Assembly: GCA_900298995.1 (NCBI GenBank)
Contig: OMIC01000001.1
Coordinates: forward strand, 1-64,000
Origin: Hyphomicrobiaceae bacterium
Lineage (GTDB): Bacteria > Pseudomonadota > Alphaproteobacteria > Rhizobiales > Aestuariivirgaceae
DNA: 64,000 nt
Reading direction: 5' to 3'
Shown here: positions 33,618 to 52,337 of the stretch, one piece after another
Layout of the letters: each line of letters begins with the position of its first letter
Numbering within the stretch: the stretch's first letter is position 1
Notes under the pieces: generated by a model
The model's database searches: none
Seen by the model: only the letters and a program-made list of their open reading frames with translations
What the model was told of the DNA's origin: nothing
Program-made: the position numbers and the translations under genes

Positions 33618-35141
33618 CTAGAAGTCCGTCTTCTCGCCGCCCTCCGCCACGCGCCGGGCGACGAAGCTGTCGATGGCCGCGAGCCGGTCGGCATCGAATG
33701 GCGGAAGCTGATACTCGGCCAGAGCCTGTTTCCATAGCGCATTGGCCCTGGTGGCGGCGGTAGGCGAACCTGCCGCCTCCCAGTTCTGGAAGTTGCGCCA
33801 GTCGGAAATCAGCGGCTGATAGAAGGCCGTCGCATAGCGTTGAAGCGTGTGCTGCGCCCCGAAGAAGTGGCCTCCCGGACCCACCTCGCGCATGGCCGCG
33901 CGTCCCATTTCCTCGGAATTGACCAGCACGGGCTTCAGGAACTCCTGCACCATCTGCAGCAAGTCGGCATCGAGCACGAATTTTTCGTAGGATGCAACGA
34001 GGCCGCCTTCCATCCAGCCCGCCGCATGCTGGATCACATTGCCACCACCCATGATGGCCGCCCACAGCGAGAACACGGTCTCATAGGCGGCCTGCGCATC
34101 GACGCTGTTGGCGGCATTGGTGCTGGAGGTCCTGTAGGGCAGCCGATAGCGCCGCGCCAGCTGACCGCCGATGATGGTGGCCTTCATGTATTCCGGTGTG
34201 CCGAAGGCAGGCGCGCCCGACTTCATGTCGACGTTCGACGTGAAGCCGCCATAGACGAAGGGCGCCCCCGGCCGGGTAAGCTGCGACAGGGCGAGGCCCG
34301 CCAGAGCTTCGGCATTCTGCTCGACAATACCTCCCGCCAGCGTGACGGGCGCCATGGCGCCCAGCAGGGTGAAGGGCGTCACCACCGCGATCTGGTTGAG
34401 GCGCGCCATCTCGATGATGCCCATGGCCATGGGTGCATCCAGCTTCAGCGGCGAATTGGTATTGATGACGGTATAGGCGGAGGGCTCGGACAGAAGCTGG
34501 TCATGGCTGATGCCGCGCGCCAGCCGGATGATCTCCAGACCGTCGAACAGACGGGCCCGGCCGGTCGCATAGATAAAGGGCACCTTGTCGGAATAGACCA
34601 TCTTGTTGCGGGTGATGTGCAGATGGCGCACCGAGGCATGGACATCGAGCGCATCGACGGAGGCGCCGCCCGCCGTGTGAACGGTGTTGAAGAACTGCGC
34701 GAGTTTCACGAAGTTTCCCGCGTCCTCGAGCGTGCCCGGCCTGCGTCCACGGTCAAGGTCGGAGCAGTTGGGCGGACCGCCCACGGGTGCGAAAACGATC
34801 GACTTGCCGCCGATGCGCAGGTTGTGCGCCGGGTTGCGGGCATGGAAGGTGAACTCGGCCGGCGGCGTCCTGAGAGCTTCCGCGATGATGTCGCGGCCGA
34901 TCCTCACGCGCTCGCCATCCACCAGCGCGCCGGCCTTGCCGAGAATGCTGCGCGCCTCGGGGAGCAGCATGTCCATGCCGATCTCCTCGAGCACGCCGAG
35001 CGACTCGGCATGGATTGCCTCGATCTGGTCATCCGAGACGATGCGCGAAGGCTCGAGCGTGAGCGATGGCTGCTGCCACGGAAGCTGCCGGATCGGCGTA
35101 TGGGCGGCATCAGGGCGGCGGCCACGACGTGGACTGGTCAT
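33618..35141 (-). CDS. MttB-family corrinoid methyltransferase, paralog 1
   Basis: 507 residues of the trimethylamine methyltransferase (MttB/MtgB) superfamily, which moves a methyl group from a quaternary or tertiary amine to a corrinoid protein. An arginine-rich start (MTSPRRGRR) leads into the TIM barrel, with VTPFTLLGAMAPVTLAGGIV, VYGGFTSNVDMKSGAPAFGT and EVGPGGHFFGAQHTLQRY. The reading frame is uninterrupted, so no pyrrolysine codon is used, as in MtgB-type enzymes. ATG 35141 follows GGAGGAGAG. It is last in a lysR-paralog 2-paralog 1 operon with a 33-base gap. The substrate is unknown; glycine betaine, proline betaine and carnitine are family precedents. Confidence 0.88.
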   Translation of the reverse strand: MTSPRRGRRPDAAHTPIRQLPWQQPSLTLEPSRIVSDDQIEAIHAESLGVLEEIGMDMLLPEARSILGKAGALVDGERVRIGRDIIAEALRTPPAEFTFHARNPAHNLRIGGKSIVFAPVGGPPNCSDLDRGRRPGTLEDAGNFVKLAQFFNTVHTAGGASVDALDVHASVRHLHITRNKMVYSDKVPFIYATGRARLFDGLEIIRLARGISHDQLLSEPSAYTVINTNSPLKLDAPMAMGIIEMARLNQIAVVTPFTLLGAMAPVTLAGGIVEQNAEALAGLALSQLTRPGAPFVYGGFTSNVDMKSGAPAFGTPEYMKATIIGGQLARRYRLPYRTSSTNAANSVDAQAAYETVFSLWAAIMGGGNVIQHAAGWMEGGLVASYEKFVLDADLLQMVQEFLKPVLVNSEEMGRAAMREVGPGGHFFGAQHTLQRYATAFYQPLISDWRNFQNWEAAGSPTAATRANALWKQALAEYQLPPFDADRLAAIDSFVARRVAEGGEKTDF

Positions 35142-35174
35142 CAACTCTCCTCCGCACAGGCCGCAGCGCGGCTG

Positions 35175-36734
35175 TCAGAAATCCGTGGGCGCCCCACCTT
35201 CCGCCTTGCGCTGCTCGACGAAGGCGTTGAGCGCATCGCGGATCGCCGGGTCGATCGGCGGTTCCTGGTAATCCGCCAGCGCCTGTTTCCACACGGCATT
35301 GGCTTTCTGCCAGGCTTCGGGCTTGCCCGCCGCCAACCATTGCTGATTGTTGCGCCAGTCCGAGATGATGGGCGCGTAGAACGCGTTTGTATAGCGCGCC
35401 AGCGTGTGTTGTGCGCCGAAGAAATGCCCGCCAGGCCCCACCTCGCGGATCGCCTCGACGCCCAGCGCGTCCTCGGTGGTCTCAAGCGGCTGCAGGAACT
35501 CACTCACCATCTGGATGAGATCGCAGTCGAGCACGAATTTCTCGAAGCTCGCCACCAATCCTCCTTCGAGCCAGCCCGCACCATGCATGATGAGATTGCC
35601 GCCACCCATGGTGAGGCCCCAGAGCGAGAACACGCTCTCATAGGCGGCCTGGGCATCCACAGCATTCGCGGCGCAGGTGTTGGATGTGCGGAACGGCAGC
35701 TTGTAGCGCCGGGCGAGCTGCCCGCCGACAATGGTCGCCTTCATGTATTCCGGCGTGCCGAAGGCGGGGGCACCCGACTTCATGTCAACATTCGAGGTGA
35801 AGCCGCCATAGATGACCGGCGCTCCCTTGCGGACCAGTTGGGTAAAGGCGATTCCAGCCAGTGCCTCGGCATTCTGCTCTACCAGCGCACCCGCCACCGT
35901 GACGGGCGCCATGGCGCCGGCAAGCGTGAAGGGCGTCACGCAGACGATCTGATTGCGCGCCGACATCTCCAGGATGCCACGCAGCATGGGCGTGTCGAGC
36001 TTGAGGGGCGAGTTGGTGTTGATGATGGTGAACAGCGAAGGCTCTCGCTCCAGCTGTTCATGGGAGATGCCACGCCCGAGGCGGGCGATCTCGATGGCAT
36101 CGCGGATGCGTTCCGTGCCGAGCGAATAGGCGTGGAAGGGCTTGTCGGTGAGCAGCACCATATCGCGCAGCGCCTCGAGATGGCGCAGGGAGGCGTGGAT
36201 ATCGATGGGCTCGACGGGATAGCCGGCGATGAAGCCGATGCAGTTGAAGTACTGGCCGAGCCTCAGGAAGTTGCGGTAGTCGGCCTGATTGCCGGTGCGG
36301 CGGCCGTTGTCCATGTCGGCACTGTTGGGCGGGCTGGCGACCGTGCCGAAGGTGATGGCATCGCCGCCGATCCTCAGGTCGTTGTCCGGGTTGCGCGCAT
36401 GGAAGGTGAATTCCGCAGGCGCGGAGGCGATGAGACCTTCGATCATCGCAGGGTCGAAGCGCACCCGCTCGCCATCCACCGAGGCGCCAGCCTTCTTCAG
36501 CATGTCGCGGACTTCCGGCAGTGTGAAATCCATGCCGATCTCGGAAAGCACCCGGAGCGAGGCATGATGGATCGACTCGATCTCATCGGCCGAAACGATA
36601 GCCATGGGCGGGAACAACCGCCGCAGCTTGCGGCGTGGCAATTGCGGGACAGGATTGCGTCCGGACACCCCGGCGCGGCGGCCGCCGCCTTCGCGCCGCG
36701 GCCTGCGGCCTGTTTCACTCTCGGTGATGCTCAC
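35175..36734 (-). CDS. MttB-family corrinoid methyltransferase, paralog 2
   Basis: 519 residues, clearly the sister of the next gene downstream. They share long identical blocks such as YGGFTSNVDMKSGAPAFGTP and REVGPGGHFFGAQHTL, and equivalent domain borders. The N-terminus is again arginine-rich. Translation probably begins at a GTG (36734) that overlaps the lysR stop (GTGA) with AGGGAAAG upstream. No in-frame amber codon occurs. A TIM-barrel methyltransferase working with the corrinoid protein at 43012 is expected. Whether the two copies differ in substrate or form a hetero-oligomer cannot be told from sequence. Confidence 0.87.
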   Translation of the reverse strand: MSITESETGRRPRREGGGRRAGVSGRNPVPQLPRRKLRRLFPPMAIVSADEIESIHHASLRVLSEIGMDFTLPEVRDMLKKAGASVDGERVRFDPAMIEGLIASAPAEFTFHARNPDNDLRIGGDAITFGTVASPPNSADMDNGRRTGNQADYRNFLRLGQYFNCIGFIAGYPVEPIDIHASLRHLEALRDMVLLTDKPFHAYSLGTERIRDAIEIARLGRGISHEQLEREPSLFTIINTNSPLKLDTPMLRGILEMSARNQIVCVTPFTLAGAMAPVTVAGALVEQNAEALAGIAFTQLVRKGAPVIYGGFTSNVDMKSGAPAFGTPEYMKATIVGGQLARRYKLPFRTSNTCAANAVDAQAAYESVFSLWGLTMGGGNLIMHGAGWLEGGLVASFEKFVLDCDLIQMVSEFLQPLETTEDALGVEAIREVGPGGHFFGAQHTLARYTNAFYAPIISDWRNNQQWLAAGKPEAWQKANAVWKQALADYQEPPIDPAIRDALNAFVEQRKAEGGAPTDF

Positions 36735-37663
36735 GTGGTCTTTCCCTTGTCGCGATAGGCTTCCAGCGCCGGGTCGGCGGCGATCTGCTTCACCAGCCAG
36801 TCCTCGAAACGCCTGATCTTTGGCTTCATGCGGTGCTCGGCATTGCAGGCCAGAAGCCAGTTGTGGCGGTGCTGCACCCTGAGCGGAAACGGCGTGACGA
36901 GCCGTCCCATCTTGATTTCCTCGGTGGCGAAGGGGCCGATGGTCATGGCGACACCGCGGCCCTCGATTGCCGCCTCCTGGGCGAGAATGTAGCTGTCGAA
37001 GGCCAGACGGTCGGACAGCTTGATGCCCTTGACGCCCGCCGCCTCGAGCCAGATGTGCCAGTCTTCCTCGGCGGTATAGACATAGAGCAGCTTGTGCTTG
37101 CGGAGGTCATCGGGCGTGAGCAGCGCATTGGGGCCCTTGAGCAGATCGGGCGAACAGATCGGCGTCAGGCGCGAGCTGAAAAGCGTCCGGTAATAGTGGT
37201 CAGGCGAACGGTTGCGCGCCAGGATGAGCCCGACATCGACATTCTTCTCGTCAAAGTCCCAGTCGAAATAGGATGTGGAAAGCCTCACCTTCATGTCCGG
37301 GAAGCGGCGCTCGAAGTCGTGCAGCCTCGGGATGAGCCATTTCAGCGCCACGGTGACATAGACCTGGACAGTGAGCTCATTGTCGGCCGCCGAGGGCTTC
37401 AGCGCACGGGTCTGCGCCTCGACCATGTCGAAGGCATCGCGCACCGGAGGAAAGTAGGTGTGGCCTGCCTGAGTGAGTTCGGCGCGCCGGGCATCGCGCC
37501 GGAACAGCTGCACACCCAGCCTCTGCTCGAGCGACTTCACCTGATGGCTGACCGCCGAGCGGGTGATGCCCAGCTCGCTGGCCGCAAGCCGGAAGCTGCC
37601 AAGCCGCGCGGCCGCCTCGAAGGCGGTGAGCGCACGCAGGGGGGGCAGGTCACGTCTGGCCAA
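36731..37663 (-). CDS. LysR-family regulator (GcvA-like) of the methyltransferase genes
   Basis: 310 residues starting at a TTG. The winged-helix DNA-binding domain is PLRALTAFEAAARLGSFRLAASELGITRSAVSHQVKSLEQRLGV in the GcvA/AmpR style, here split across residues 6-49. The effector domain follows (ELTVQVYVTVALKWLIPRL). It is the first gene of the operon with paralogs 2 and 1, overlapping paralog 2 by four bases, and it is divergent from paralog 3 across 179 bases. That arrangement suggests it controls both transcription units. The effector is unknown; a methylated amine or glycine-related compound is a reasonable guess. Confidence 0.9.
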   Translation of the reverse strand: MARRDLPPLRALTAFEAAARLGSFRLAASELGITRSAVSHQVKSLEQRLGVQLFRRDARRAELTQAGHTYFPPVRDAFDMVEAQTRALKPSAADNELTVQVYVTVALKWLIPRLHDFERRFPDMKVRLSTSYFDWDFDEKNVDVGLILARNRSPDHYYRTLFSSRLTPICSPDLLKGPNALLTPDDLRKHKLLYVYTAEEDWHIWLEAAGVKGIKLSDRLAFDSYILAQEAAIEGRGVAMTIGPFATEEIKMGRLVTPFPLRVQHRHNWLLACNAEHRMKPKIRRFEDWLVKQIAADPALEAYRDKGKTT

Positions 37664-37842
37664 GTTTCCTCACCACTCTGTTGTCGGCTCCTTCTATCAT
37701 CATTGATTTCATGGCGTTAAGGGAGGAGGCCCGGAAAAAGCCCTCTATAGGGTGACAAATACTCACCACCAAACCAAAAAGATAGGCCATTGAAACACCC
37801 GCCCGAACCGGGGGATATAGGGACAGATCAGGAGTTTCAGCC

Positions 37843-39420
37843 ATGAGTGCCGTTGAAGACCTCTCTCGCCGCCGCGGCGGTCGTGAAGCCCGCCGGGCCC
37901 TGCGGTCCCGCCCGATCCCGATGGCCGAAGCCGCCGTGCGGCCCGGCATGGAGGGCGGCCAGTACAAGCCCCTCACCGAACGCGACATGCAGCGCATCCA
38001 CGAGACGGCGCTGAAGCTTCTCGAGACGGTGGGGCTTTCGCAGGCCATTCCGACCTGCGTCGAGGCAATGACCGCGCGAGGCTGCTTCATCAATTCCCAG
38101 GGCCGGCTGTGCATTCCGCGCGCCCTCGTCGAGGACACGCTGGCGAGCTGCGCGCGCAACTTCGTGCTGCATGGACGCGATCCGAAGCATGACATGGAAC
38201 CCTCGGGCAACAAGGTCTATTTCGGAACGGCGGGCGCCGCGGTGCATGTCGTCGAGCCCGAGACCAAGACCTACCGTGAATCGGTTCTGGTCGATCTCTA
38301 TGACGCGGGCCGCATCGTGGACACCTGCGAGCATATCCACTTCTACCAGCGTCCTCTCACCGCCCGCGACATGCTCACCGGCCACGACCTCGACATCAAC
38401 ACCATGTATGCCTGCATCGCAGGCACGCAGAAGCATGTCGGCACGTCGATGGTCGACCCCGCGCATGTCACCGAATGCCTCGAAATCCTGCATTTCGTGG
38501 CGGGCGGTGAAGCCCAGTGGCGCGAGCGGCCCTTCGTGTCGCAGTCCAACTGCTTCGTCGTGCCGCCGATGAAATTCGCCGAAGACGCCTGCCGCTGCCT
38601 CGAAGTGGCCGCGCGCGGCGGCATGCCGGTGCTGCTTCTCTCGGCCGCGCAGGCAGGCGCCACATCGCCCGCCGCGCTGGCCGGCACGGTGGTGCAGGCC
38701 GTGGCGGAATGCCTCGCAGGCCTCGTCTACATCAACTGCGTGGTTCCCGGCGCGGTGGCGATCTGGGGACCGTGGCCCTTCGTCTCGGACCTGCGCACCG
38801 GCGCAATGTCGGGTGGTTCGGGCGAACAGGCGCTCATCACGTCGGGCTGCGCCCAGATGGGGCACTTCTACAATCTCACGGTCGGCTCGGCTGCCGGCAT
38901 GTGCGACTCGAAGATGCCGGACATGCAGGCGGGTTACGAAAAGGGCGTGACCGCCGGAATCTCGGCCATGACGGGCATCAACCTGCTCTATGAGTCGGCC
39001 GGCATGCACGCCTCGCTGCTGGGCTTCTGCCTCGAGAGCCTGCTCATCGACAACGACATGCTGGGCTCGATCAACCGCAATGTGCGCGGCATCGAGGTGA
39101 ACGAGGACACGCTGTCGCTCGAAGTCATCGCCGATGTGTGCCTCGCGGGACCCGGTCATTATCTCGGCAACGAGCAGACGCTGACGCTCATGCAGAAGGA
39201 ATACGTCTATCCGCATGTCTCGAACCGCATGAGCCCCAAGGAATGGAACGAGGCCGGCAAGCCCGATATCGTGGAGCGGGCCGCGGCCCGGAAGCGCGAG
39301 ATCCTGACGAGCTACTATCCCGACTACATTCCGCGGGCCATCGACGAGCAGATCCGCGCCAAGCACGACATCAGGCTTCCCCGCAGCGTGATGGAGCCGG
39401 GCGACCCGCGCTGGAGCTGA
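37843..39420 (+). CDS. MttB-family corrinoid methyltransferase, paralog 3
   Basis: 525 residues, a more distant member of the same superfamily. The arginine-rich lead RRRGGREARRALRSRPIP is shared in style. The barrel shows SGNKVYFGTAGAAVHVVEP, PAALAGTVVQAVAECLAG, WGPWPFVSDLRTGAMSGGSG and LAGPGHYLGNEQTLTLMQKEY, the last corresponding to GPGGHFFGAQHTL of paralogs 1 and 2. No in-frame amber codon. CAGGAG lies upstream of ATG 37843. It heads an operon with the ferredoxin-like gene (1-base gap) and a homocysteine methyltransferase (4-base gap), which ties the demethylation to homocysteine as methyl acceptor. Confidence 0.87.
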   Translation: MSAVEDLSRRRGGREARRALRSRPIPMAEAAVRPGMEGGQYKPLTERDMQRIHETALKLLETVGLSQAIPTCVEAMTARGCFINSQGRLCIPRALVEDTLASCARNFVLHGRDPKHDMEPSGNKVYFGTAGAAVHVVEPETKTYRESVLVDLYDAGRIVDTCEHIHFYQRPLTARDMLTGHDLDINTMYACIAGTQKHVGTSMVDPAHVTECLEILHFVAGGEAQWRERPFVSQSNCFVVPPMKFAEDACRCLEVAARGGMPVLLLSAAQAGATSPAALAGTVVQAVAECLAGLVYINCVVPGAVAIWGPWPFVSDLRTGAMSGGSGEQALITSGCAQMGHFYNLTVGSAAGMCDSKMPDMQAGYEKGVTAGISAMTGINLLYESAGMHASLLGFCLESLLIDNDMLGSINRNVRGIEVNEDTLSLEVIADVCLAGPGHYLGNEQTLTLMQKEYVYPHVSNRMSPKEWNEAGKPDIVERAAARKREILTSYYPDYIPRAIDEQIRAKHDIRLPRSVMEPGDPRWS

Positions 39421-39421
39421 G

Positions 39422-40081
39422 GTGGAGCATCCGGTTCTGACCGCCATCCGCCGCGCGGCCTTCACGCCGCTCGGCTGGTTCGCGCCGGGCGCGACAGACG
39501 GGATGCCTGGGGATGCGCGCTTCGCGATCCTGATCGGCAATGCCGGACCGGACATGTTCCGGCGCTTCGCGCGCGAACGCGATGTCATGCGCGACACCCT
39601 CGATGCATGGACCCGCGACGTGGTCTCGGCGCTGGCGCGCGACCTCGATGCGCGGGCCGTTTATCCCTTCGACATGGATCCGCCCTGGCCGTTCCTCCGC
39701 TGGGCACAGCGGGCGGGCGCTGGCCATGTATCGCCGCTGGGCCTCAACATCCACCCTGTCTACGGCCTGTGGCATGCCTATCGTGCGGCACTGCTGTTTC
39801 CCGTGGCCTTCGACCTGCCCCCGCAGAGCCCGGGGCCGAACCCCTGCGGGACATGCGCCGGCAAGCCCTGCCTCACCGCCTGCCCCGTGGACGCCTTCGA
39901 CGGCCAGCGCTATGACGAGACATCCTGCGCGGGCCATATCGCAACAGCTGACGGGCAGTCCTGCATGAGCCGGGGCTGCCTCGCGCGCCACGCCTGTCCC
40001 GTGGGACAGGGTTTCGCCTATGCGCCCACCCAGGCAGAGTTTCACATGCGCGCTTTCCGCGCGGCGCGGGGCAAGGTCTAG
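39422..40081 (+). CDS. Two-cluster ferredoxin-like protein in the methyltransferase operon
   Basis: 219 residues from a GTG one base after paralog 3. The first about 135 residues show no family I recognise, although they resemble the ferredoxin-linked domains of QueG-type proteins. Eight cysteines follow: 142, 145, 150 and 154 (CGTCAGKPCLTACP) and 169, 181, 186 and 192 (CMSRGCLARHACP). This spacing can hold two 4Fe-4S clusters. No signal peptide, so it is cytoplasmic. The tight junctions indicate co-translation with paralog 3 and the homocysteine methyltransferase. A role in reducing the corrinoid cofactor is attractive because no RamA/RACo activator is present, but it is inference. Confidence 0.72.
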   Translation: MEHPVLTAIRRAAFTPLGWFAPGATDGMPGDARFAILIGNAGPDMFRRFARERDVMRDTLDAWTRDVVSALARDLDARAVYPFDMDPPWPFLRWAQRAGAGHVSPLGLNIHPVYGLWHAYRAALLFPVAFDLPPQSPGPNPCGTCAGKPCLTACPVDAFDGQRYDETSCAGHIATADGQSCMSRGCLARHACPVGQGFAYAPTQAEFHMRAFRAARGKV

Positions 40082-40085
40082 ATCG

Positions 40086-40997
40086 ATGTACGGACACATC
40101 GCGGGAAAGCTGGCGCGCGGCGACATCATCATCCTGGATGGCGGCACCGGAACCGACATCCAGCGCCGTGGCGTGCCGATGAGTTCCGGCACATGGTGCG
40201 CGGAGGCCAATCTCTCCCATCCCGATGTGGTCGCGGCGGTTCACGCCGACTACATCCGGAGCGGCGCCGACATCATCACCGCCAACACCTTCGCGACATC
40301 GGCCCTGCTCTTCAACGCGGTGGGACGCGATGACGACATGCTGGCGATCGACCAGGCAGCGGTGGCCATTGCCCGGCGGGCTGCGGCCGGTCACGCGGTC
40401 GCGGTTGCAGGCTCGATGTCCACCATGCGTCCCGTCCAGCCCGGCAGTGACCGCACGCTGAAGCAGCAGGAATGGCCGGAGGCGCAGGCGCGCGACCTTT
40501 TCAGGCGCAAGGCGGAAAATCTGGCAGCGGCCGGCGTCGACCTCATCATGATGGAGATGATGCGCGACCAGGACTACTCGGTCTGGGCCACGGAGGCAGC
40601 ACAGGCGACGGGGCTCCCCGTCTGGATCGGGCTCTCCGCCGAACGCCGGAAGGACGGTGCGCTCACCGGCTTCGGCCGCGAAGACCAGATGCTCGACGAC
40701 GTGGCGCGCGTGCTCTCCGCTCTGAAGCCAGATGCCTTCAGCATCATGCACACATCGCCCAACGATACCGGTGCGGCGATCGACGTTCTCCGCCGCCACT
40801 GGAGCGGCCCGGTCGGCGCCTATCCCGAAAGCGGCTATTTCACCATGCCGGACTGGACCTTCGTCGACATCATCGCGCCCGCCGACCTGGTGGCAAAGGC
40901 CCGCGACTGGCAGAGACGGGGTGTGACGGCCTTTGGCGGCTGCTGCGGGCTGGGCCCGGAACATATCACTGCCCTGCGGTCGGCGTTCCCGTCCTGA
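40086..40997 (+). CDS. Homocysteine S-methyltransferase-family protein
   Basis: 303 residues of the Pfam S-methyl_trans barrel. The N-terminus is IILDGGTGTDIQRRGVP and the zinc site is completed by a GGCCG motif in FGGCCGLGPEHI near residue 290, with a further Cys expected in the upstream barrel. The N-terminal zinc Cys of the usual GANC motif is replaced in this chain by SIMHTSPND, which is unusual. The start is ATG 40086; the longer reading extends back into the ferredoxin-like gene. It closes the operon of MttB paralog 3 and would transfer the methyl group to homocysteine or a thiol. Confidence 0.83.
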   Translation: MYGHIAGKLARGDIIILDGGTGTDIQRRGVPMSSGTWCAEANLSHPDVVAAVHADYIRSGADIITANTFATSALLFNAVGRDDDMLAIDQAAVAIARRAAAGHAVAVAGSMSTMRPVQPGSDRTLKQQEWPEAQARDLFRRKAENLAAAGVDLIMMEMMRDQDYSVWATEAAQATGLPVWIGLSAERRKDGALTGFGREDQMLDDVARVLSALKPDAFSIMHTSPNDTGAAIDVLRRHWSGPVGAYPESGYFTMPDWTFVDIIAPADLVAKARDWQRRGVTAFGGCCGLGPEHITALRSAFPS

Positions 40998-41135
40998 GCA
41001 CTGCCGTTCCGCTGATGGCCGGATGGCCGGCCGCACGGACTGCAACACCGCCGGCAATCCTCTCGGGTCTTGCAGGCGCCGTTCCGGTGCGCGAAACTCA
41101 GCCGGTTACGCAAACCCTTCCTTATGTTTGGGGAC

Positions 41136-42038
41136 ATGTCATTGAGAGATCCCTATGAAGTGCTGGGCGTCGCCAGGACCGCCACGCCCGAGGACATCCG
41201 ATCAGCCTACCGGAAGCTGGCGAAGAAGCTGCATCCCGACCTGAACCCCGGCGACAGCAAGGCCGAGGACAGGTTCAAGGAGGTGACGGGGGCCTACGAG
41301 ATCCTTTCGGATGCCGAAAAGCGCCGCCGCTTCGACGCGGGCGAGATCGACGCATCCGGCACGGAGCGGCCGCAGCAGCACTATTACAAGGAGTATGCGG
41401 GCGCAGCAGGGCCGCGGTATCAGAACACGTCGGGGTTTGCCGATCTGGCCGAGGAGGACGACTTCCTCGCCGAACTCCTCAGGCGGCGCGAGCAACAGGC
41501 ACGGCGGGCGCCGGGAGCCGACAGGCTCTACCAGTTGCAGGTGGATTTTCTTGACGCCGTGACTGGCGCGACACGGCGGATCACGCTTCCCGACGGCAAC
41601 TCGCTCGACGTCACGATCCCGCCGGGCATACAGGACGGCCAGACCCTGCGGCTGCGTGGCAAGGGCGCGCCAAGCCGTGGCGATGGCCCGCCGGGAGACG
41701 CGCTGGTCGAAATCACGATCAGGCCGCACAAGTTCTTCACGCGGGACGGCGATGACATCCTGATCGAGCTTCCGGTCACCATCGCGGAGGCCATTCTCGG
41801 CGGCAAGGTGAAGGTCCCGACGCCGTCGGGCGCGGTGATGCTGACGGTGCCGAAGGGATCCACCACCGGCTCAACCCTGCGCCTCAAGGGCAAGGGGGTC
41901 GCGCGCCGCGACGGCAGCCATGGCGATGAGCTGGTGAAGCTCAAGGTGATGACACCCGCCCAGCCAGATGCCGAGCTTGAGTCCTTCCTGTCCAACTGGA
42001 CACCGAATTATGATCCGCGCCGGGACATGCAGCCATGA
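41136..42038 (+). CDS. cbpA: DnaJ-class co-chaperone CbpA
   Basis: 300 residues. The J domain (1-66) has the HPD motif in [22 protein letters not shown]. There is no cysteine-rich zinc finger; the two C-terminal beta domains ([44 protein letters not shown]) follow directly, which identifies the CbpA type. It stimulates DnaK. ATG 41136 has a GGGG site; an ATG 12 bases earlier is in frame. The next gene, its modulator cbpM, overlaps by four bases, confirming the assignment. Confidence 0.93.
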
Positions 42039-42354: not shown

Positions 42355-42993
42355 TCACACCGCCTGCGCCGTGAGGTCCCTCTCCAATTCGCCATAGCCC
42401 GTGAACCGGTATTCATAGGCAAGCCCGAGGCGTCGGGCCGCAGCCTCGGCGCGGGTCGCGAGATCCGGGTCGCGTGTCTGGGCCAGAAACACGATCTTGG
42501 TGTAGTTGCCGAAATAGTCGGCCAGAAGTTCCGGATGCCTGTCGAGACCCAGTCCCTCCCAGATCAGCTTGTCGAAATGCCGCGCCAGATAGTCGGTGAG
42601 GAAAAAGGCCGTGATGTCTTCATCGGCATGCGCTGCAAATGCGGCGTTGCCTGAGAAGAAGGCATAGCAGTGCGGACCTTCGAGGCGCTGAATACCCTCC
42701 GCTTCCAGCATGGCATCGAGCAGTCCGCCTGTACCGCAATCGCCGTAGAGGACGAAGATCGCGTCATAGCGTCCGCGCGCTGCAGCAATCTTCTCGCGCA
42801 GCGCCGGCACGATCCTCTCCGGCGTGTTGTGCCACTTGGCGGGCAGGCATTGCAGGTCGAAGCCCGACCAGCGGTTGCGTTCGATCAGGTCAACGATCTC
42901 GCGCGCCAAAGCACCGCAGGCCAGAAGAAGAACCTTCCCCTGGCCTGGCTTGAACTCGAACTCTTCTGCAGGCGCCAGATCGACGGCGGTCAT
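42355..42993 (-). CDS. DUF1638 protein of the corrinoid methyltransferase island
   Basis: 212 residues of DUF1638. The core motifs are LLLACGALAREIVDLIERN, CLPAKWHNTPERIVPALREKI, and YGDCGTGGLLDAM, with conserved cysteines at the first and third. The fold is likely Rossmann-like. Members are commonly found beside MttB-type methyltransferases and corrinoid proteins, but no activity is established. The gene follows the corrinoid protein gene by 18 bases on the same strand, so the two are co-transcribed. The conserved CG and DCG cysteines and the pairing suggest a thiol- or metal-dependent job in the methyl-transfer chain, by inference only. Confidence 0.83.
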   Translation of the reverse strand: MTAVDLAPAEEFEFKPGQGKVLLLACGALAREIVDLIERNRWSGFDLQCLPAKWHNTPERIVPALREKIAAARGRYDAIFVLYGDCGTGGLLDAMLEAEGIQRLEGPHCYAFFSGNAAFAAHADEDITAFFLTDYLARHFDKLIWEGLGLDRHPELLADYFGNYTKIVFLAQTRDPDLATRAEAAARRLGLAYEYRFTGYGELERDLTAQAV

Positions 42994-43011: not shown

Positions 43012-43713
43012 TCAGTTGGACGCGAGCTGATTGTGCTTGCGGGCCATGAAGCTCTTGGCAGTCTCGACCGCCACGGCCGCGTCACGGCAATAGGCGTCCG
43101 CACCGATGGCCTTGGCGAATTCCTCGTTCAGCGGCGCGCCACCCACGAGCACGACATAGTCGTCGCGCATGCCCTTTTCCTTCATGGTGTCAATGACGAC
43201 CTTCATGTAGGGCATGGTTGTCGTGAGCAACGCCGACATGCCGAGGATGTCCGGCTTGTGCTGCTCCATGGCCTCGAGATACTTCTCGACGGGATTGTTG
43301 ATGCCGAGGTCGATGACTTCGAAGCCCGCGCCCTCCATCATCATGCCGACAAGGTTCTTGCCGATGTCGTGAATGTCACCCTTCACCGTGCCAATCACCA
43401 TCTTGCCCTGGCGCGGCGCGCCGGTCGCGATCAGCAAGGGTCGCAGGATGTTCATGCCGGCCTTCATCGAATTGGCGGCCAGCAGAACCTCGGGCACGAA
43501 CAGGATGCCATCGCGGAAGTCGACGCCAACGATGCGCATGCCCTCGACCAGAGCCTCGGTGAGAACCTTGTAGGGCGCCCAGCCACGGCCGAGCAGGATG
43601 TGCACCGCCGTCTCGACCTCTTCCTTGAGGCCGTCATAGAGGTCGTCATGGACCTGCTGGACGAGTTCCTCGTCATTAAGGGAGTTCAGGTCAAGTTCGC
43701 CATCATCGCTCAT
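43012..43713 (-). CDS. Corrinoid (B12-binding) methyl-carrier protein
   Basis: 233 residues. The N-terminal helical cap (about 20-100) is VHDDLYDGLKEEVETAVHIL through VGVDFRDGILFVPEVLLAAN. The Rossmann B12 domain has GDIHDIGKNLVGMMMEGAGFEVIDLG with the cobalt-ligating His at 115, ILGMSALLTTTMPYM and VLVGGAPLNEEFAKAIGADAY. It accepts the methyl group from the MttB-type enzymes and hands it to the methyl acceptor, as MtgC or MttC do. It is the only corrinoid protein in the window and so presumably serves all three MttB paralogs. It is followed by the DUF1638 gene. Confidence 0.95.
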   Translation of the reverse strand: MSDDGELDLNSLNDEELVQQVHDDLYDGLKEEVETAVHILLGRGWAPYKVLTEALVEGMRIVGVDFRDGILFVPEVLLAANSMKAGMNILRPLLIATGAPRQGKMVIGTVKGDIHDIGKNLVGMMMEGAGFEVIDLGINNPVEKYLEAMEQHKPDILGMSALLTTTMPYMKVVIDTMKEKGMRDDYVVLVGGAPLNEEFAKAIGADAYCRDAAVAVETAKSFMARKHNQLASN

Positions 43714-46622: not shown

Positions 46623-47639
46623 TCAATTCCCGCGGCGGCGCTCCCGGCGGGCAGCGCCCGCAGCGGCGGCATCAACGCCCTTGGCGAGTTCCGAGACGGG
46701 GCCAAGCTTCTCCTCGATCAGCGCAATCGAAGCCCGCGCGCCGCCGCCGTAGGTTTCAAGCGACTTGCGCATCGCGGCGAGATGCTCCGGGCTCGTGCCG
46801 CAGCAGCCGCCGATGATCTTCGCCCCTGCATCGAGCGCGATCCGCGCGTAATCTGCCATGAGTTCCGGGGTTCCCGTGTAGTGAATATGCCCGTCGACAT
46901 ATTGAGGGATGCCGCAATTGCCCTTGGCGACGACCGCCGCGTCAGGCCTCGCCTCCGTGATGCCGAGGACGGTTGCGATCAGTTCGGACGCTCCGACGCC
47001 GCAGTTTGCGCCAATCGCAGCAGGCTGGACCGGCAGCGCGGCGGTGATGGCGCCAAAAGCCTTGGGGGTGATGCCCATCATGGTCCGGCCATTGGTGTCG
47101 AAGCTCATGGTGGTCACGATCGGCAGGCCCGCCTTCGATGCACCCTCGACGGCGGCCCTGAGTTCCTCTTCCGACGACATGGTCTCGATCCACAGCACGT
47201 CCGCCCCGCCTTCTTTCAGGGCCATCGCCTGTTCGGAAAAGGCCTTCACGGCGTCGCCGTGCGAGAGCGCGCCAACGGGTTCCATGATCTCGCCGGTCGG
47301 ACCGATTGAGCCTCCGACATAGACCGGCCGGCCCGCCGCATCCGCCTCGGCGCGGGCATTGCGCATGGCGGCCAAGTTGATCTCGCGCACCCTGTCCTGG
47401 GCATCATGCAGTTTCAGCCGGTGACGGTTGCCGCCGAAGGAGTTGGTGAGGATGATGTCAGCCCCCGCCTCGATGAAGCGTCGGTGCAGCGAACGAACGC
47501 GGTCCGGGTGTTCGAGGTTCCACATCTCCGGCGCATCGCCCGAGACAAGGCCCATCTGAAAGTAGTTGGTGCCCGTTGCGCCGTCGGCCAGGAGCCACGG
47601 ACGGGTCGCGAGAGCCTCGGTGAAGGACGGGCGGGTCAT
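46623..47639 (-). CDS. bmt: Betaine-homocysteine S-methyltransferase-type protein
   Basis: 338 residues of the S-methyl_trans barrel with a complete zinc site: the GANCGVGASE motif near residue 215 and GGCCGTSPEHLAAM near residue 295. The N-terminus LLADGATGTNYFQMGLVSGD is characteristic of the alphaproteobacterial BHMT form. It moves a methyl group from glycine betaine (or a methyl carrier) to homocysteine to make methionine. GGAGG precedes the ATG. The 20-bp palindrome at 47662 is placed to repress it. Together with the corrinoid and MttB genes this links the island to the methionine cycle. Confidence 0.9.
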   Translation of the reverse strand: MTRPSFTEALATRPWLLADGATGTNYFQMGLVSGDAPEMWNLEHPDRVRSLHRRFIEAGADIILTNSFGGNRHRLKLHDAQDRVREINLAAMRNARAEADAAGRPVYVGGSIGPTGEIMEPVGALSHGDAVKAFSEQAMALKEGGADVLWIETMSSEEELRAAVEGASKAGLPIVTTMSFDTNGRTMMGITPKAFGAITAALPVQPAAIGANCGVGASELIATVLGITEARPDAAVVAKGNCGIPQYVDGHIHYTGTPELMADYARIALDAGAKIIGGCCGTSPEHLAAMRKSLETYGGGARASIALIEEKLGPVSELAKGVDAAAAGAARRERRRGN

Positions 47640-47711: not shown

Positions 47712-48641
47712 TCAGGCGGCCCGGGCCCCGTAGAACAGGGTCACCACATGCTGGGCTTCGGCGAAGAACAGCCAGCGTTCGACAACCGCCGCCACGAGCG
47801 CCACCAGCGCGGCGAGCACGGCGGCGAGCGGCGCCACCAGGGCGGCCAGCATCAGCCCGATGGCGAGGCACAAGGCCAGAACGACCAACCGCCGCAGCTT
47901 GCGGGCATGCTTGCGGGCCACCGCATAGCCCATTTCGGTCTGGACATAGTTGGCCGAGGTGTGCGGCACCTCCCACTGGCTCACGCGCCCGATGCGACCG
48001 AGGCCCGTGGCGGCCTCGATGGTGTGGGTGCGGGGAGCCGAATCGATGGACCGCCAGTAGGCAAGCTTGAGCGCCAGCGTGAGCGCCAGCAGCAGGCACG
48101 ACAGATAGACCAGAAAAGCCGGGAGATTGCCGAACAACGCCGTCAGCGCAGCCAGCAGCGAGGCGCCCGTCGACAGCCCGAAGACCAGATAGACCGGCAC
48201 CGTCAGGCCATTGTTCCAGGCCCGGATGGTTGCGAGGCTCGAATAGATCTTGCCGGTGCAGAAGACGGTGATCACGGCCAGGACGACGCTCAGCGCGCCG
48301 AGCGGTGCTATCAGCGTCGGCGCCTCGAGGAGGCCCGACCAGACGAGGCCAAAGAAAAGGGCCGGCCCAAAGGCGAGCACGGCCACCACACCCTCGCGCG
48401 ACAGCCAGGAGGTGCGCCACTGCGACAGGGCCCGCCAGGCGCGCTCGGGATGACCCAGGTGGAAGGTTGAGGACAGAAGGCCCGCCGTGATGAGGCCGAG
48501 ACTGACGATCATGGCCGCCACGCCGAATGCGATGCTCGAGGCCTGTCCGTGGCTCATGCCGGTGAGACCCAGAAGGGCCAGCAGGCCGTAGCCAGCGCCC
48601 GAGGCCGTCGTGAACAGGATGACGGAATAGGCAGGATGCAT
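47712..48641 (-). CDS. DmsC/NrfD-type membrane anchor of a molybdoenzyme (SoeC-like)
   Basis: 309 residues with about eight hydrophobic helices: YSVILFTTASGAGYGLLALLGL, FGVAAMIVSLGLITAGLLSST and the anchor-family turn FHLGHPERAWRALSQWRTSWLSREG. This matches the DmsC family of quinone-facing subunits. It is the third gene after the molybdopterin and iron-sulfur subunits (3-base gap), so it tethers the complex to the cytoplasmic face of the inner membrane and exchanges electrons with quinone. In SoeABC these electrons come from sulfite. There is no haem-ligand pattern I can call. Confidence 0.87.
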   Translation of the reverse strand: MHPAYSVILFTTASGAGYGLLALLGLTGMSHGQASSIAFGVAAMIVSLGLITAGLLSSTFHLGHPERAWRALSQWRTSWLSREGVVAVLAFGPALFFGLVWSGLLEAPTLIAPLGALSVVLAVITVFCTGKIYSSLATIRAWNNGLTVPVYLVFGLSTGASLLAALTALFGNLPAFLVYLSCLLLALTLALKLAYWRSIDSAPRTHTIEAATGLGRIGRVSQWEVPHTSANYVQTEMGYAVARKHARKLRRLVVLALCLAIGLMLAALVAPLAAVLAALVALVAAVVERWLFFAEAQHVVTLFYGARAA

Positions 48642-48644
48642 GCT

Positions 48645-49442
48645 TCAGCCTTCGAGCTTTCCGGAATTGTCGATGTCGGCGGCCCGCGCGGGGGTCTTGC
48701 CAGTCGAGAGCAGCCGGTCGGCCCAGGCGAACAGCCGGTCGAAGGCCGATCCATCGGGCTTCGGCAGGGCTTCGGGCCTGGAGGTGGCACCGTCGCGGCG
48801 CGGCCGCGGCGGCAGGTATTTGTTGACCGGCTTGTAGCCCATCTCAGGCAGAAGATCATAGCCGCCGCGTTCGGCCACGAGTTGGGAGACAGCGGAATCC
48901 GGATCGCCCAGATCGCCGAAATGACGCGCGCCCGTCGGGCAGGCCTTGACGCAGGCCGGAAGCCTGTCGTCGGGTTCGAGATTGTCGTTGTAGATGCGGT
49001 CGACGCACAGCGTGCATTTCTTCATGACGCCGTCGTTCTGATCATATTCGCGTGCGCCATAGGGACAGGCCCAGGAGCAGAGCTTGCAGCCGATGCAGGT
49101 TTCCGGATTCACCAGAACGATGCCATCCTCGGCGCGCTTGTAGCTGGCGCCCGTCGGGCAGACGGTGACACAGGCGGGCTCCTCGCAATGCAGGCAGGAG
49201 CGAGGGAAATTGACGATGCGCCTCTGGGCCTGGCCGGCCTCTTCGACCTCATAGCCGTGGATGCGGTTGAGCCACGTGCCGGACGGGTTGGAGCCATAGG
49301 CATTCACGTCGTTCAGAGGGGCGGAATAGCCCTGCGTGTTCCATTCCTTGCAGGAGGTGGCACAGGCCTGACACCCGACGCAGGTATCGAGGTCGATGAC
49401 CAGGCCAAGCTTCTTTGCCGATGGCGAAGGGAGCGATGTCAT
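48645..49442 (-). CDS. Iron-sulfur subunit of the molybdoenzyme (SoeB/DmsB-like)
   Basis: 265 residues with four 4Fe-4S cluster sets: CVGCQACATSCKEWN, CLHCEEPACVTVCPTGA, CIGCKLCSWACPYGA and CTLCVDRI...CVKACPTGA. The arrangement and the GLVIDLDTCVGC start match DmsB/SoeB electron-transfer subunits. No signal peptide is present, so the complex is cytoplasmic. The true start is ATG 49442, overlapping the molybdopterin subunit stop by four bases (ATGA). A roughly 50-residue tail past the last cluster is proline-rich and probably contacts the anchor. Confidence 0.92.
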   Translation of the reverse strand: MTSLPSPSAKKLGLVIDLDTCVGCQACATSCKEWNTQGYSAPLNDVNAYGSNPSGTWLNRIHGYEVEEAGQAQRRIVNFPRSCLHCEEPACVTVCPTGASYKRAEDGIVLVNPETCIGCKLCSWACPYGAREYDQNDGVMKKCTLCVDRIYNDNLEPDDRLPACVKACPTGARHFGDLGDPDSAVSQLVAERGGYDLLPEMGYKPVNKYLPPRPRRDGATSRPEALPKPDGSAFDRLFAWADRLLSTGKTPARAADIDNSGKLEG

Positions 49443-52246
49443 GATGCCCCCGCAAGGGTCTTGAGGGCCGCGAATTGCGGCTCGCTGGCCGGCTGCTGGT
49501 CCCCTGCCTTCTCGATGCGCACGCGCAGATCGTACCAGGCCGCCTGACCGGTGACGGGATCGCTGTTGGAATAGCGGTAGCCGCCTTCGCGCTCCGGCAG
49601 AAGTTCGGAGATCAAGTGGTTGAGCAGGAAGCCCTGCTTCGACTCGTCCGCGCCGGGCGCAAGGTTCCACGCGCCCGACCGCTTGCCGATTGCATTCCAC
49701 GTCCATACGGTTTCGGGATTGACGCCGTCCATGAGCCGGGCCTGCGCCTTGATCCGGCCATGGTGCGAGGTGACCGTGACCCAGTCATCATCCGCGATGC
49801 CGTGCCTCGCTGCGAGTTCCCGCGCCATGTAGAGCCAGTTGCGTCCGAGGATCTGACGCAGCCAGGCATTCTGCGAGCCCCAGGAATGATACATGGCCAT
49901 CGGCCGCTGGGTCACGGCATGAAGCGGATATTGTTCCGCCGCAACGAGCTCGCCCTCGAAGGGCGCATACCAGAAGGGGATGGGATCGAAATGATCCGCG
50001 ATGCGCTGGCGGTGGCCGGCGGGCGGCACGATTGACCCGTGTCCGCGCGCGGCGAGGCGGAATTTCTGCAGCGGCTCGCAGTAGAGCTGGTGGATTACCG
50101 GATCGGGCCTGGCGATGAAGCCGAAGAAGGTGGCCCAGTCCAGATAGGCCCAGTTCACATGCCGGTAGTATTTCATGTGGTCGGGCAGTTCATGGAACCA
50201 GTGGCAGCCATTGGCGATATAGGCCTGCAACTGGTCGGGATTGGGCGCACCCCGCCCCTGCGCGCGGCCGTTGGCGCCCCGGAAGCCCGCCAGGGGCCCG
50301 ATGCCCGGCGCGCGCTCGTGATTGACGATGTAGTCGGGGTAACCGCCGGGATAGCGCGGCGAGCCGTCATTGCGTGTCATGCCGGGCAGGCCCAGCCGCG
50401 CGCCGATGTCGAGCAGCACGGTCTGGAACGGCCGCACGTCCCGGTCGGGCTCGGTGACCGGCTGGCGGATCGAGTCCGCAGGGCCGTCGGCCTCCGAGAT
50501 CGGGCGGTCGAGCAGCGACACGCAGTCCCAGCGTTCGAGATAGGTGGTGTCCGGCAGGATCAGGTCGGCATAGTGCACCATCTCCGAGGCATAGGCGTCG
50601 GAATAGATGATCTTCGGGATGGTGTAGGACCCGTCAGGCTCCTTCTGCGTGAGATAACCGATGGTGTCCGGCACGTTCATGGCCGAGTTCCAGCTCATGT
50701 TGGCCATGTACATGAACAGGACGTCGATGCCGTAGGGATCCTTCTTCGCGGCATTGGTGATGACCATGTGCATCAGCCCATGGGCCGCCAGCGGCGCATC
50801 CCAGCTGTAGGCCTTGTCAATGCGCTGCGGCCTGCCCTCGGCATCAACCAGGAGATCGGCAGGCGCGGCCACGAAGCCGAGCGGCGGCCCGGGCAGCGGC
50901 GTGTTGGGCTTCACCTGACCGGGCTTGCCGGCAGGCTTGACACCGGGCGGCGCGGGCTTCGGAAACGGCGGTTTGTAGCGGAAGCCACCCGGCACATCTA
51001 TGGTGCCGAGCAGGATCTGCAGAAGATGGATGGTGCGGCAGGTCTGAAAGCCATTGCTGTGGGCCGATATCCCGCGCATGGCATGCATGGACACAGGCCG
51101 GCCGATCATCTTTTCGTGATAGCGGCCCAGATGATCCGTCCACGGAACATCAAGCGCGATTTCCTCTTCGAAGGCAGTCCGGACGAGTTCCGCCGCAATC
51201 CGTCTGATCGTCTCCGCCGGAACCCCGCAGCGCGCCGCGATGTTCTCGGGCGCCCACTCCGGTTCCAGAAACCGCTCGGCAATGAGCGTGAAGGCGGTGA
51301 CCACACGGCGGCCGTCCGGAAGCTTGTAGCGACCCATCAGTTTCGGTGCGGCATCGGGCGAGAGCGCGGGCATGGGCGAACTGGAGTGGCCGTCCCAGAT
51401 CAGCGCAGAGCCCTGTGCATTGCGGGCAAACAACCCGTCGTCCTCGCCGCCCGGGTTCTCGATGATGAGCCAGGGTGAATTCGTGTAGCGCAGCAGATAG
51501 TCGCCATCGATCCGCTGGGCGCTCACGATCTCGTGGATCAGCGCGCCCACGAACAGTCCGTCCGTTCCGGGACGAATTCCGATCCATTCATCGGCAATCG
51601 CGGAATAACCGGTACGGATGGGATTGATGGAGACGATCTTGGCGCCGCGCTCCTTCAACTGGCCGAGGGCCTTCTTGATCGGGTTCGAGGCGTGATCTTC
51701 GGCAACGCCGAAGAGCATGAAGTATCTGGTGTGCTTCCAGTCGGGCTCACCGAACTCCCAGAACGAGCCGCCGAAGGTGTAGAGCCCCGCCGCCGCCATG
51801 TTGACCGAGCAGAACCCGCCATGCGCGGCATAGTTGGGCGTCCCGAACTGCGTTGCCCACCAGCCCGTCAGGCCCTGGCTCTGGTCGCGTCCGGTGAAGA
51901 AGGCGAGTTTGCGGGGGTCCTTGGCACGAACCTCCGACAGCCACTGGGTGGCAAGGCCCAGGGCCTCCTCCCATTCGATTTCGCGGAAGTCGCCCGAACC
52001 CCGCTCGCCGACGCGCAGCAGCGGCTTCGACAGGCGCGCGGGCGAGTAATGCTGCATGATGCCGGCTGCACCCTTGCCGCAGATCACGCCCTTGTTCACG
52101 GGGTGCGCCGGATTGCCGTCGATATAGGTGACGCGGCCGTCCTTCAGATGAACCCGGATGCCGCAGCGGCAGGCGCACATGTAGCAGGTCGTTGTCTTGA
52201 CCTCGTCCCAGGTCCTGGGCGAGGTGTTCACGAAGGGCTCGGTCAT
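49439..52246 (-). CDS. Molybdopterin oxidoreductase catalytic subunit (SoeA-like)
   Basis: 935 residues of the DMSO-reductase superfamily. The N-terminal 4Fe-4S motif is CYMCACRCGIRVHLKDG and continues to VICGKG, as in SoeA and similar enzymes. Further landmarks are FFTGRDQSQGLTGWWATQFG, the guanine-dinucleotide contacts SVNMAAAGLY and FMLFGVAEDHASNPIKK, ADLILPDTTYLERWD, and the C-terminal domain YPLHAVTQRPMAMYHSWGSQNAWL with ATFFGF before it. No twin-arginine signal is found, which separates it from periplasmic DmsA/TorA. I favour a SoeABC-type sulfite dehydrogenase for this reason and for the adjacent MocR regulator. The start is ATG 52246; a longer reading would run into the divergent promoter. 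Confidence 0.85.
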   Translation of the reverse strand: MTEPFVNTSPRTWDEVKTTTCYMCACRCGIRVHLKDGRVTYIDGNPAHPVNKGVICGKGAAGIMQHYSPARLSKPLLRVGERGSGDFREIEWEEALGLATQWLSEVRAKDPRKLAFFTGRDQSQGLTGWWATQFGTPNYAAHGGFCSVNMAAAGLYTFGGSFWEFGEPDWKHTRYFMLFGVAEDHASNPIKKALGQLKERGAKIVSINPIRTGYSAIADEWIGIRPGTDGLFVGALIHEIVSAQRIDGDYLLRYTNSPWLIIENPGGEDDGLFARNAQGSALIWDGHSSSPMPALSPDAAPKLMGRYKLPDGRRVVTAFTLIAERFLEPEWAPENIAARCGVPAETIRRIAAELVRTAFEEEIALDVPWTDHLGRYHEKMIGRPVSMHAMRGISAHSNGFQTCRTIHLLQILLGTIDVPGGFRYKPPFPKPAPPGVKPAGKPGQVKPNTPLPGPPLGFVAAPADLLVDAEGRPQRIDKAYSWDAPLAAHGLMHMVITNAAKKDPYGIDVLFMYMANMSWNSAMNVPDTIGYLTQKEPDGSYTIPKIIYSDAYASEMVHYADLILPDTTYLERWDCVSLLDRPISEADGPADSIRQPVTEPDRDVRPFQTVLLDIGARLGLPGMTRNDGSPRYPGGYPDYIVNHERAPGIGPLAGFRGANGRAQGRGAPNPDQLQAYIANGCHWFHELPDHMKYYRHVNWAYLDWATFFGFIARPDPVIHQLYCEPLQKFRLAARGHGSIVPPAGHRQRIADHFDPIPFWYAPFEGELVAAEQYPLHAVTQRPMAMYHSWGSQNAWLRQILGRNWLYMARELAARHGIADDDWVTVTSHHGRIKAQARLMDGVNPETVWTWNAIGKRSGAWNLAPGADESKQGFLLNHLISELLPEREGGYRYSNSDPVTGQAAWYDLRVRIEKAGDQQPASEPQFAALKTLAGAS

Positions 52247-52337
52247 GCGCTTTCCGCCTCGGGACTCATTAGGGACTACTCTACCGGCTCTCTTGGCCCT
52301 ATGATAGGTCCAGACACAGCGTTCACAGGGACCAAAC

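Follow-up and report, generated by a model that had tools for sequence, protein, structure and literature searches.

The 219-residue protein encoded at 39422–40081 of the window (the whole 64,000-nucleotide stretch of DNA analysed here) looks like a member of an uncharacterised family of minimal cobalamin and [4Fe-4S] proteins, in which a predicted CblC-like B12 module is joined to a built-in electron relay. The sequence-only reading had taken it for a ferredoxin-like candidate activator of corrinoid proteins. The link to corrinoids stands, as indicated by co-occurrence, gene clusters and a predicted B12-enzyme fold, whereas the activator role is weakened by a RACo that is present in the genome and shares clusters with relatives of the gene.

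To our knowledge, the loading and reduction of B12 for bacterial corrinoid proteins are poorly understood. A passage of PMC4646009 considers it possible that more families combining cobalamin and [4Fe-4S] clusters exist among genes with C-terminal ferredoxin-like modules, and the protein at 39422 is a concrete candidate for one of them. It fits this picture in being CblC-sized, in having a QueG/RdhA-type relay and in lacking the HEAT domain of QueG.

The gene and its surroundings

The reading frame is a real gene and not a chance one, given that its cysteines are conserved in homologs and that its dN/dS is 0.13–0.23. In four pairwise comparisons dN was 0.17–0.26 and dS 0.86–1.93, and this low dN relative to dS indicates that the protein is under selection. 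The frame starts with GTG, just downstream of a GGAG, and the N-terminus MEHP is also found in most close relatives, for which the start codon nearest the expected place was chosen. The gaps given by the sequence-only reading were accurate, the gene lying 1 nt after the MttB gene and 4 nt before the homocysteine methyltransferase gene (Table 1). The same reading had the corrinoid protein in this operon, which is wrong: its gene and that of the DUF1638 protein are both on the minus strand. A search of 37500–41200 for promoters and terminators gave no count clearly above chance.

The adjacent MttB paralog is divergent, with 23–26% identity to MttB1, MttB2 and the S. meliloti MttB. It stays next to the 39422-type gene in most relatives of the genus and is a candidate methyltransferase. 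The homocysteine S-methyltransferase family protein downstream is 24.8% identical to the one at 46623, and of the two only the latter passes a curated equivalog model (betaine–homocysteine methyltransferase). Further along the minus strand, the open reading frames at 47712–52477 resemble by eye a cluster of molybdopterin oxidoreductase, iron-sulfur subunit and membrane anchor.

Table 1. Features of the window around the 39422 gene
Feature	Position	Strand	Basis
CblC/QueG-like cobalamin and two-[4Fe-4S] protein (219 aa), proposed	39422..40081	+	ORF, model, fold search, QueG profile
Predicted nitroreductase-type B12-binding module as in CblC, residues 1–140	39422..39841	+	fold; conserved G115, W117, R121
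Two-[4Fe-4S] module, residues 141–195	39842..40006	+	Cys pattern, alignments, QueG profile comparison
MttB-family methyltransferase, divergent paralog 3 (MttB3)	37843..39420	+	PF06253 353.7 bits; TIGR02369 below cut-off
Homocysteine S-methyltransferase family protein	40086..40997	+	PF02574
MtgC-type corrinoid protein	43012..43713	-	only PF02607 match in genome; below cut-off of every named corrinoid model
DUF1638 protein	42355..42993	-	PF07796
Betaine–homocysteine S-methyltransferase / MtgE-like subunit	46623..47639	-	NF005718 508.7 bits, over cut-off
MttB-family protein 1	33618..35144	-	PF06253
MttB-family protein 2	35175..36734	-	PF06253
LysR-type regulator, divergent from MttB3	36731..37663	-	PF03466/PF00126

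Predicted fold and cysteine pattern

The AlphaFold model of the protein (pLDDT 94.8, pTM 0.90) was compared with the PDB, the Z scores being re-alignments of the matches that Foldseek itself returned. The best match was human CblC/MMACHC (3som_B, Z 13.7, rmsd 3.5, 185 of 219 residues aligned), followed by QueG (5d6s_C, Z 11.7) and the CblC of C. elegans (Z 11.6). Lower Z scores went to reductive dehalogenases (about 9) and to CblD, a B12 chaperone (5.8), and ordinary nitroreductases reached 4.9 at most. The model thus has the CblC fold and, as in the class III cobalamin and [4Fe-4S] enzymes QueG and RdhA, a nitroreductase-type B12 module, as far as a predicted fold can tell, ahead of a C-terminal cysteine pattern for two [4Fe-4S] clusters. 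The plain ferredoxin reading was dropped, the N-terminal 140 residues being conserved and CblC-like by predicted fold.

Family models match the protein weakly, below their cut-offs. The protein scored 12.4 bits with the CblC model PF16690 (cut-off 27) and 24.8 bits with the QueG model TIGR00276 (E 9.4e-6, cut-off 200). Over the family, PF16690 matched 12 of 19 members at E up to 0.1 (best 0.003) and TIGR00276 13 of 19 (best 9.4e-6), while the ferredoxin-type NapG model NF007012 matched 15 of 19 (best E 1.7e-5), about on par with QueG. In profile searches of PDB sequences QueG came first (E 0.0048 and 0.014) and CblC behind it (E 0.056 and 0.51), so that sequence alone leaves the assignment unsettled. 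When a family profile was compared with five alphaproteobacterial QueG, the match had probability 96.2 and E 2.2e-9 over 109 columns, which run from the last part of the B12 module into the beginning of the Fe-S module. Of the Pfam, NCBIfam and PHROGs models searched, none names the protein above its cut-off; PHROGs gave no match at E up to 0.01, and the reductive dehalogenase model TIGR02486 none at E up to 1. A TagF_N match from Pfam (E 0.023, below cut-off) was shared by only 2 of 19 members and taken as chance. Among viral stretches, five fit the search pattern and none of them encodes a relative.

The likeness to CblC also includes the motif IHP-x2-G-x-W-x3-R and a size similar to that of the solved CblC chains. 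The stretch GLNIHPVYGLWHAYRA of the protein aligns with GVCIHPRFGGWFAIRG of the CblC chain 3sby, an alignment that at E 0.055 is non-significant on its own; in it R121, W117 and H111 stand opposite positions 161, 157 and 151. R161 of human CblC is, as we take it, a disease residue and part of the glutathione site. G115, W117 and R121 are invariant in 19 of 19 members of set A1, which was chosen otherwise than set A2; the loci of A2 were picked by the peptide pattern GLWH[AG][YF]R[AG]A, and the conservation of residues 115–123 there is therefore partly circular. Unlike the known CblC, the protein is bacterial and scores below the PF16690 cut-off. Moreover, it carries a two-[4Fe-4S] module, whereas CblC, which according to a passage of PMC4646009 binds cobalamin much as QueG does, has no ferredoxin domain.

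With QueG the protein shares the succession of a nitroreductase-type B12 module and a two-[4Fe-4S] module, together with the order of the cysteines. QueG continues into a C-terminal HEAT domain, whereas the protein at 39422 stops at residue 219 after the Fe-S module and a long helix (the four QueG compared have 353–379 residues). The DYH tripeptide, invariant in the five QueG of set A3, occurs nowhere in its 219 residues. RdhA, in which two [4Fe-4S] clusters adjoin the corrin (PMC4646009), resembles the protein in predicted fold and is about twice as long.

The count of eight cysteines in two sets made by the sequence-only reading is exact. They are spaced C142-x2-C145-x4-C150-x3-C154-P and C169-x11-C181-x4-C186-x5-C192-P, which differs from the textbook ferredoxin C-x2-C-x2-C-x3-C-P and matches QueG in order. 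All eight are conserved in 63 of 63 aligned sequences, that of the window among them, in an alignment that left out interrupted, very short and very long frames. A looser eight-cysteine motif is present in 156 of 162 homolog frames, some genomes entering this count more than once. Of the six frames that miss it, L156 has an altered motif and the other five (L072, L086, L122, L159 and L173) are interrupted or shifted, L122 and L173 being apparently a single stretch. In QueG the distal cluster is held by C184, C187, C190 and C243 and the B12-proximal cluster by C194, C210, C236 and C239, as listed in PMC4646009 where the clusters are described. By analogy, C142/C145/C150/C192 would hold the distal cluster of the protein and C154/C169/C181/C186 the B12-proximal one, a correspondence that for C142–C169 lies within the alignments and for C181–C192 follows from order only.

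Neighbourhoods and distribution of the relatives

A scan of the genome collection returned at least 576 stretches that encode a 39422-type protein. The best 80 include Alpha-, Beta- and Gammaproteobacteria, Sorangium and a MAG labelled Nitrospira, part of them being the same genomes as in a set of 61 relatives. Homologs lie in MttB/corrinoid clusters, as the conserved-neighbour check proposed by the sequence-only reading would have it: in 40 of these 80 loci, genes for MttB, a corrinoid protein, DUF1638, an MtgD-like protein or RACo lie no more than 8 kb away. Four have only other matches to the B12 query set (one of them, L119, an ABC ATPase match alone); 21, with at least 4 kb on both sides, have no query-set match within 8 kb, and the remaining 15 without a match have short flanks. 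Of 20 further loci, 17 gave no query-set match in the stretch fetched. In 36 of the best 80 the 2.5 kb upstream contain an MttB gene on the same strand, and in 30 a homocysteine methyltransferase gene comes within 300 nt downstream. The adjacent paralog varies, being of MttB3 type in 27 loci, of S. meliloti type in 5 and of MttB2 type in 4.

A quick tree was made of 104 homologs, and 37 of its 101 inner branches are weak. The cluster context switches 12 times on it (shuffled mean 34.5), so that gain or loss of the association probably happened repeatedly. Ten switches are left when short-flank loci are removed, and at least three are forced by well-supported branches.

In S. meliloti (L069), Shinella (L070) and Paracoccus aminovorans (L071) the gene is the last of a cluster with RACo (ASKHA), methyltetrahydrofolate:corrinoid methyltransferase, MTHFR, DUF1638, corrinoid protein and MttB. 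The S. meliloti record, CP090106.1, is labelled pSymB; its 3.7 Mb are presumably the size of the chromosome, and the label may be wrong. In the related genome G014 (L056) the gene goes with RACo, DUF1638 and corrinoid protein, and no MttB was found in the 19 kb fetched. Other neighbourhoods touch different B12 enzymes: the gene directly follows IcmF in L164 and L167 (the L164 copy of IcmF scores 1925 bits against a cut-off of 1500), and in L171 it lies between MCM large subunit/mutase genes upstream and a corrinoid protein gene downstream. A run of cobalamin genes in Methylibium petroleiphilum PM1 (L072) has at its end a distant homolog that comes third after cobS; the frame annotated for this homolog misses the second set of cysteines. 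Mutase-like matches in L128, L143 and L144 reach 31–35%. The btuD-like match of L119 (34%) is probably one that any ABC ATPase would give and is not counted as support.

No constant neighbour emerged for the homologs outside clusters among 43 loci examined with a crude longest-ORF gene caller. The caller placed the 39422-type gene itself in a single similarity group for no more than 23 of the 43. Three of the 43 (L126, L132 and L139) were later found to have cluster genes. In family f49 the gene stands just after what by eye looks like acetylglutamate kinase (argB) in L195 and L197, and one ORF after such a gene in L198, not beside MttB. Taken together, the neighbourhoods agree with a general B12 function that methyltransferase clusters have recruited, although the standalone loci themselves show no positive sign of B12.

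A strong homolog (E below 1e-40) is encoded in 38 of the 61 related genomes, and the weak matches that were all four more genomes gave proved to be QueG. All 38 have MttB and 33 have RACo, while MttB occurs without the gene in 9 of the 61. In a class-wide sample of 385 genomes (matches at E up to 1e-20) the gene was found in 82, MttB in 82 and RACo in 84. The co-occurrence with MttB that the sequence-only reading called for is there: 61 of the 82 MttB genomes carry the gene, 21 have MttB without it, 21 the gene without MttB and 282 neither, an odds ratio of 39. RACo accompanies MttB in 76 of the 82 MttB genomes (odds ratio 467), these counts and ratios taking no account of kinship. All three genes occur together in 57 genomes and the gene without MttB or RACo in 17 of the 82 that bear it, whereas 19 of the 76 genomes with MttB and RACo have no 39422-type gene, so that the pathway can run without the protein. 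In the phylum-wide sample, 40 of 249 genomes gave a match at E up to 1e-10.

A link to the MetH reactivation domain PF02965 was considered and set aside. The domain occurs in 16 of 17 gene-only genomes and in 147 of 278 with none of the three genes; this was not relied on because genome size and kinship are uncontrolled and genomes with MttB and RACo show no such link (27 of 57 with the 39422-type gene, 7 of 19 lacking it). No published name or paper for the family was found in the open-licence PMC literature, outside which most subscription journals lie.

RACo and the possible functions of the protein

RamA and RACo are indeed absent from the window, as the sequence-only reading had it. Its premise, that a ferredoxin does the work since there is no RACo, fails at the level of the genome: a search of the source genome (G000, 99.4% complete) found one RACo on contig C40, the only match to PF14574, a model that also matches the control Methanosarcina acetivorans. 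This RACo is complete, with Fer2, linker, middle and C-terminal domains, and directly follows an MtgD-like methyltransferase gene. Seven MttB-family matches were found in the genome, and a search for the MetH reactivation domain PF02965 gave none at E up to 1e-20. RACo, DUF1638 and the MtgE-like protein form a set that resembles the split methionine synthase of Phaeobacter and also the dual glycine betaine/methionine system of Ruegeria, the latter as described in part of PMC12478193. Methionine synthesis in Phaeobacter requires a RamA-like DUF4445 protein and a DUF1638 protein, to both of which the passages concerned of PMC5764234 ascribe a presumed part in B12 reactivation, with no specific proposal for DUF1638. 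Compared with the MtgBCDE system of PMC12478193, MtgC-, MtgE- and MttB-family genes and DUF1638 are found in the window and MtgD-like and RACo genes on contig C40. The word "ferredoxin" is absent from the main text of that paper, and the passages drawn on here from it and from PMC5764234 mention no protein like the one at 39422. Relative to the MtgBCDE system, the 39422-type gene is an added component.

We give about even chances to the reading that the protein, as modelled, would be a bacterial counterpart of CblC wired to its own electron supply, which dealkylates or reduces B12 and then hands it over. Its N-terminal nitroreductase-type module would bind cobalamin base-off, as suggested by the predicted fold, and the C-terminal two-[4Fe-4S] module, placed as in QueG, would pass electrons to the cobalt via the cluster nearest the corrin. 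In this way, free or damaged cobalamin could be stripped of its upper ligand and its cobalt reduced. The reduced cobalamin would then be handed to B12 proteins, the most likely client here being the genome's single MtgC-type corrinoid protein, which is presumably shared by the MttB enzymes and the split methionine synthase; in other genomes the recipients would include IcmF and mutases. A base-off cobalamin beside a cluster suits ligand removal or reduction, and this would explain the links to methyltransferase, mutase and cobalamin genes. Routine reactivation of Co(II) to Co(I) would be left to RACo and DUF1638. The protein thus appears to accompany RACo instead of replacing it, because RACo goes with MttB so regularly and shares clusters with the gene in S. 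meliloti, Shinella and Paracoccus, although five relatives without detectable RACo leave some doubt. It also differs from RACo and RamA, with which it has in common an iron-sulfur nature and a place alongside MttB and corrinoid proteins, in giving no match to the ASKHA domain PF14574, the genome's RACo being a separate gene.

If this is true, a B12-handling step would be added to glycine betaine demethylation and split methionine synthesis. The mtgC of the glycine betaine/methionine route is reported in a passage of PMC12478193 to be highly expressed across the ocean. More tentatively, and at somewhat under even chances, we propose that the relatives make up a further widespread cobalamin and [4Fe-4S] family, a bacterial CblC with its own relay and a minimal form between CblC and QueG/RdhA, which would make or repair reduced cobalamin for B12 methyltransferases and mutases.

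Direct activation, as the sequence-only reading proposed it, seems to us unlikely. The protein would then return Co(II) on the corrinoid protein to Co(I), either unaided or as a reductant acting together with DUF1638. The MttB genes found so often just upstream on the same strand would suit such a role, as would five relatives with the gene and MttB in which Pfam found no RACo: G005, G008, G009, G023 and G024, whose assemblies are scored as 100%, 82%, 66%, 90% and 94% complete. A full-length RACo search was empty in the last four and gave in G005 only a 39% match to residues 29–126, the Fer2 part; G005 (L046) has the gene, MttB, corrinoid protein and DUF1638. To these the class sample adds four more genomes with the gene and MttB and no RACo match. 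However, RACo is present in the source genome and in 57 of the 61 class genomes with both genes, and one of the four, G067, has at the edge of a contig the end piece of a RACo with 63% identity, which indicates that some of the absences are assembly gaps. Chemistry also weighs against it: on an O-demethylase protein the Co(II)/Co(I) couple stands at −530 mV, lower than ferredoxin or flavodoxin and beyond ferredoxins without ATP, and an activase with ATP moves it to −250 mV (PMC6739815, in the part on activation). At such potentials a ferredoxin by itself is poorly placed to carry out direct reactivation. Direct activation nevertheless keeps its small share of probability because G005 and the four less complete relatives show no RACo.

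We consider equally improbable that the protein is a small cobalamin and [4Fe-4S] reductase acting on a metabolite, for example by reductive dealkylation, and no cofactor chaperone. Its relay is common to QueG and the reductive dehalogenases, and the gene occurs in class genomes without MttB or RACo and often stands by itself. However, no substrate domain such as the HEAT repeats of QueG has been added, the nearest fold is that of a processing enzyme, CblC, and the crude gene calls gave no constant neighbour.

Still less probable is a role as a simple electron carrier to RACo or some other oxidoreductase, with a purely structural N-terminal module, since that module is conserved and CblC-like by predicted fold and 21 of the 82 gene-bearing class genomes have no RACo match, even if a passage of PMC6739815 has RACo-type activases probably drawing electrons from ferredoxin or flavodoxin, one S. 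meliloti record annotates the gene as "ferredoxin" and the NapG model weakly matches most members.

Other QueG-like proteins came to light in two loci. In L064 (7680–8789, minus strand), one ORF from a homolog, a 369-residue protein looks QueG-like in its HPEFG stretch and cysteine sets and gave no match to Pfam (E 0.01) or NCBIfam (E 1e-5). In L180 (1085–2371, minus strand) a QueG-like iron-sulfur protein (TIGR00276 45.9 bits, below cut-off) is fused to an SCP2 sterol-transfer domain and possibly represents another unnamed cobalamin and [4Fe-4S] family.
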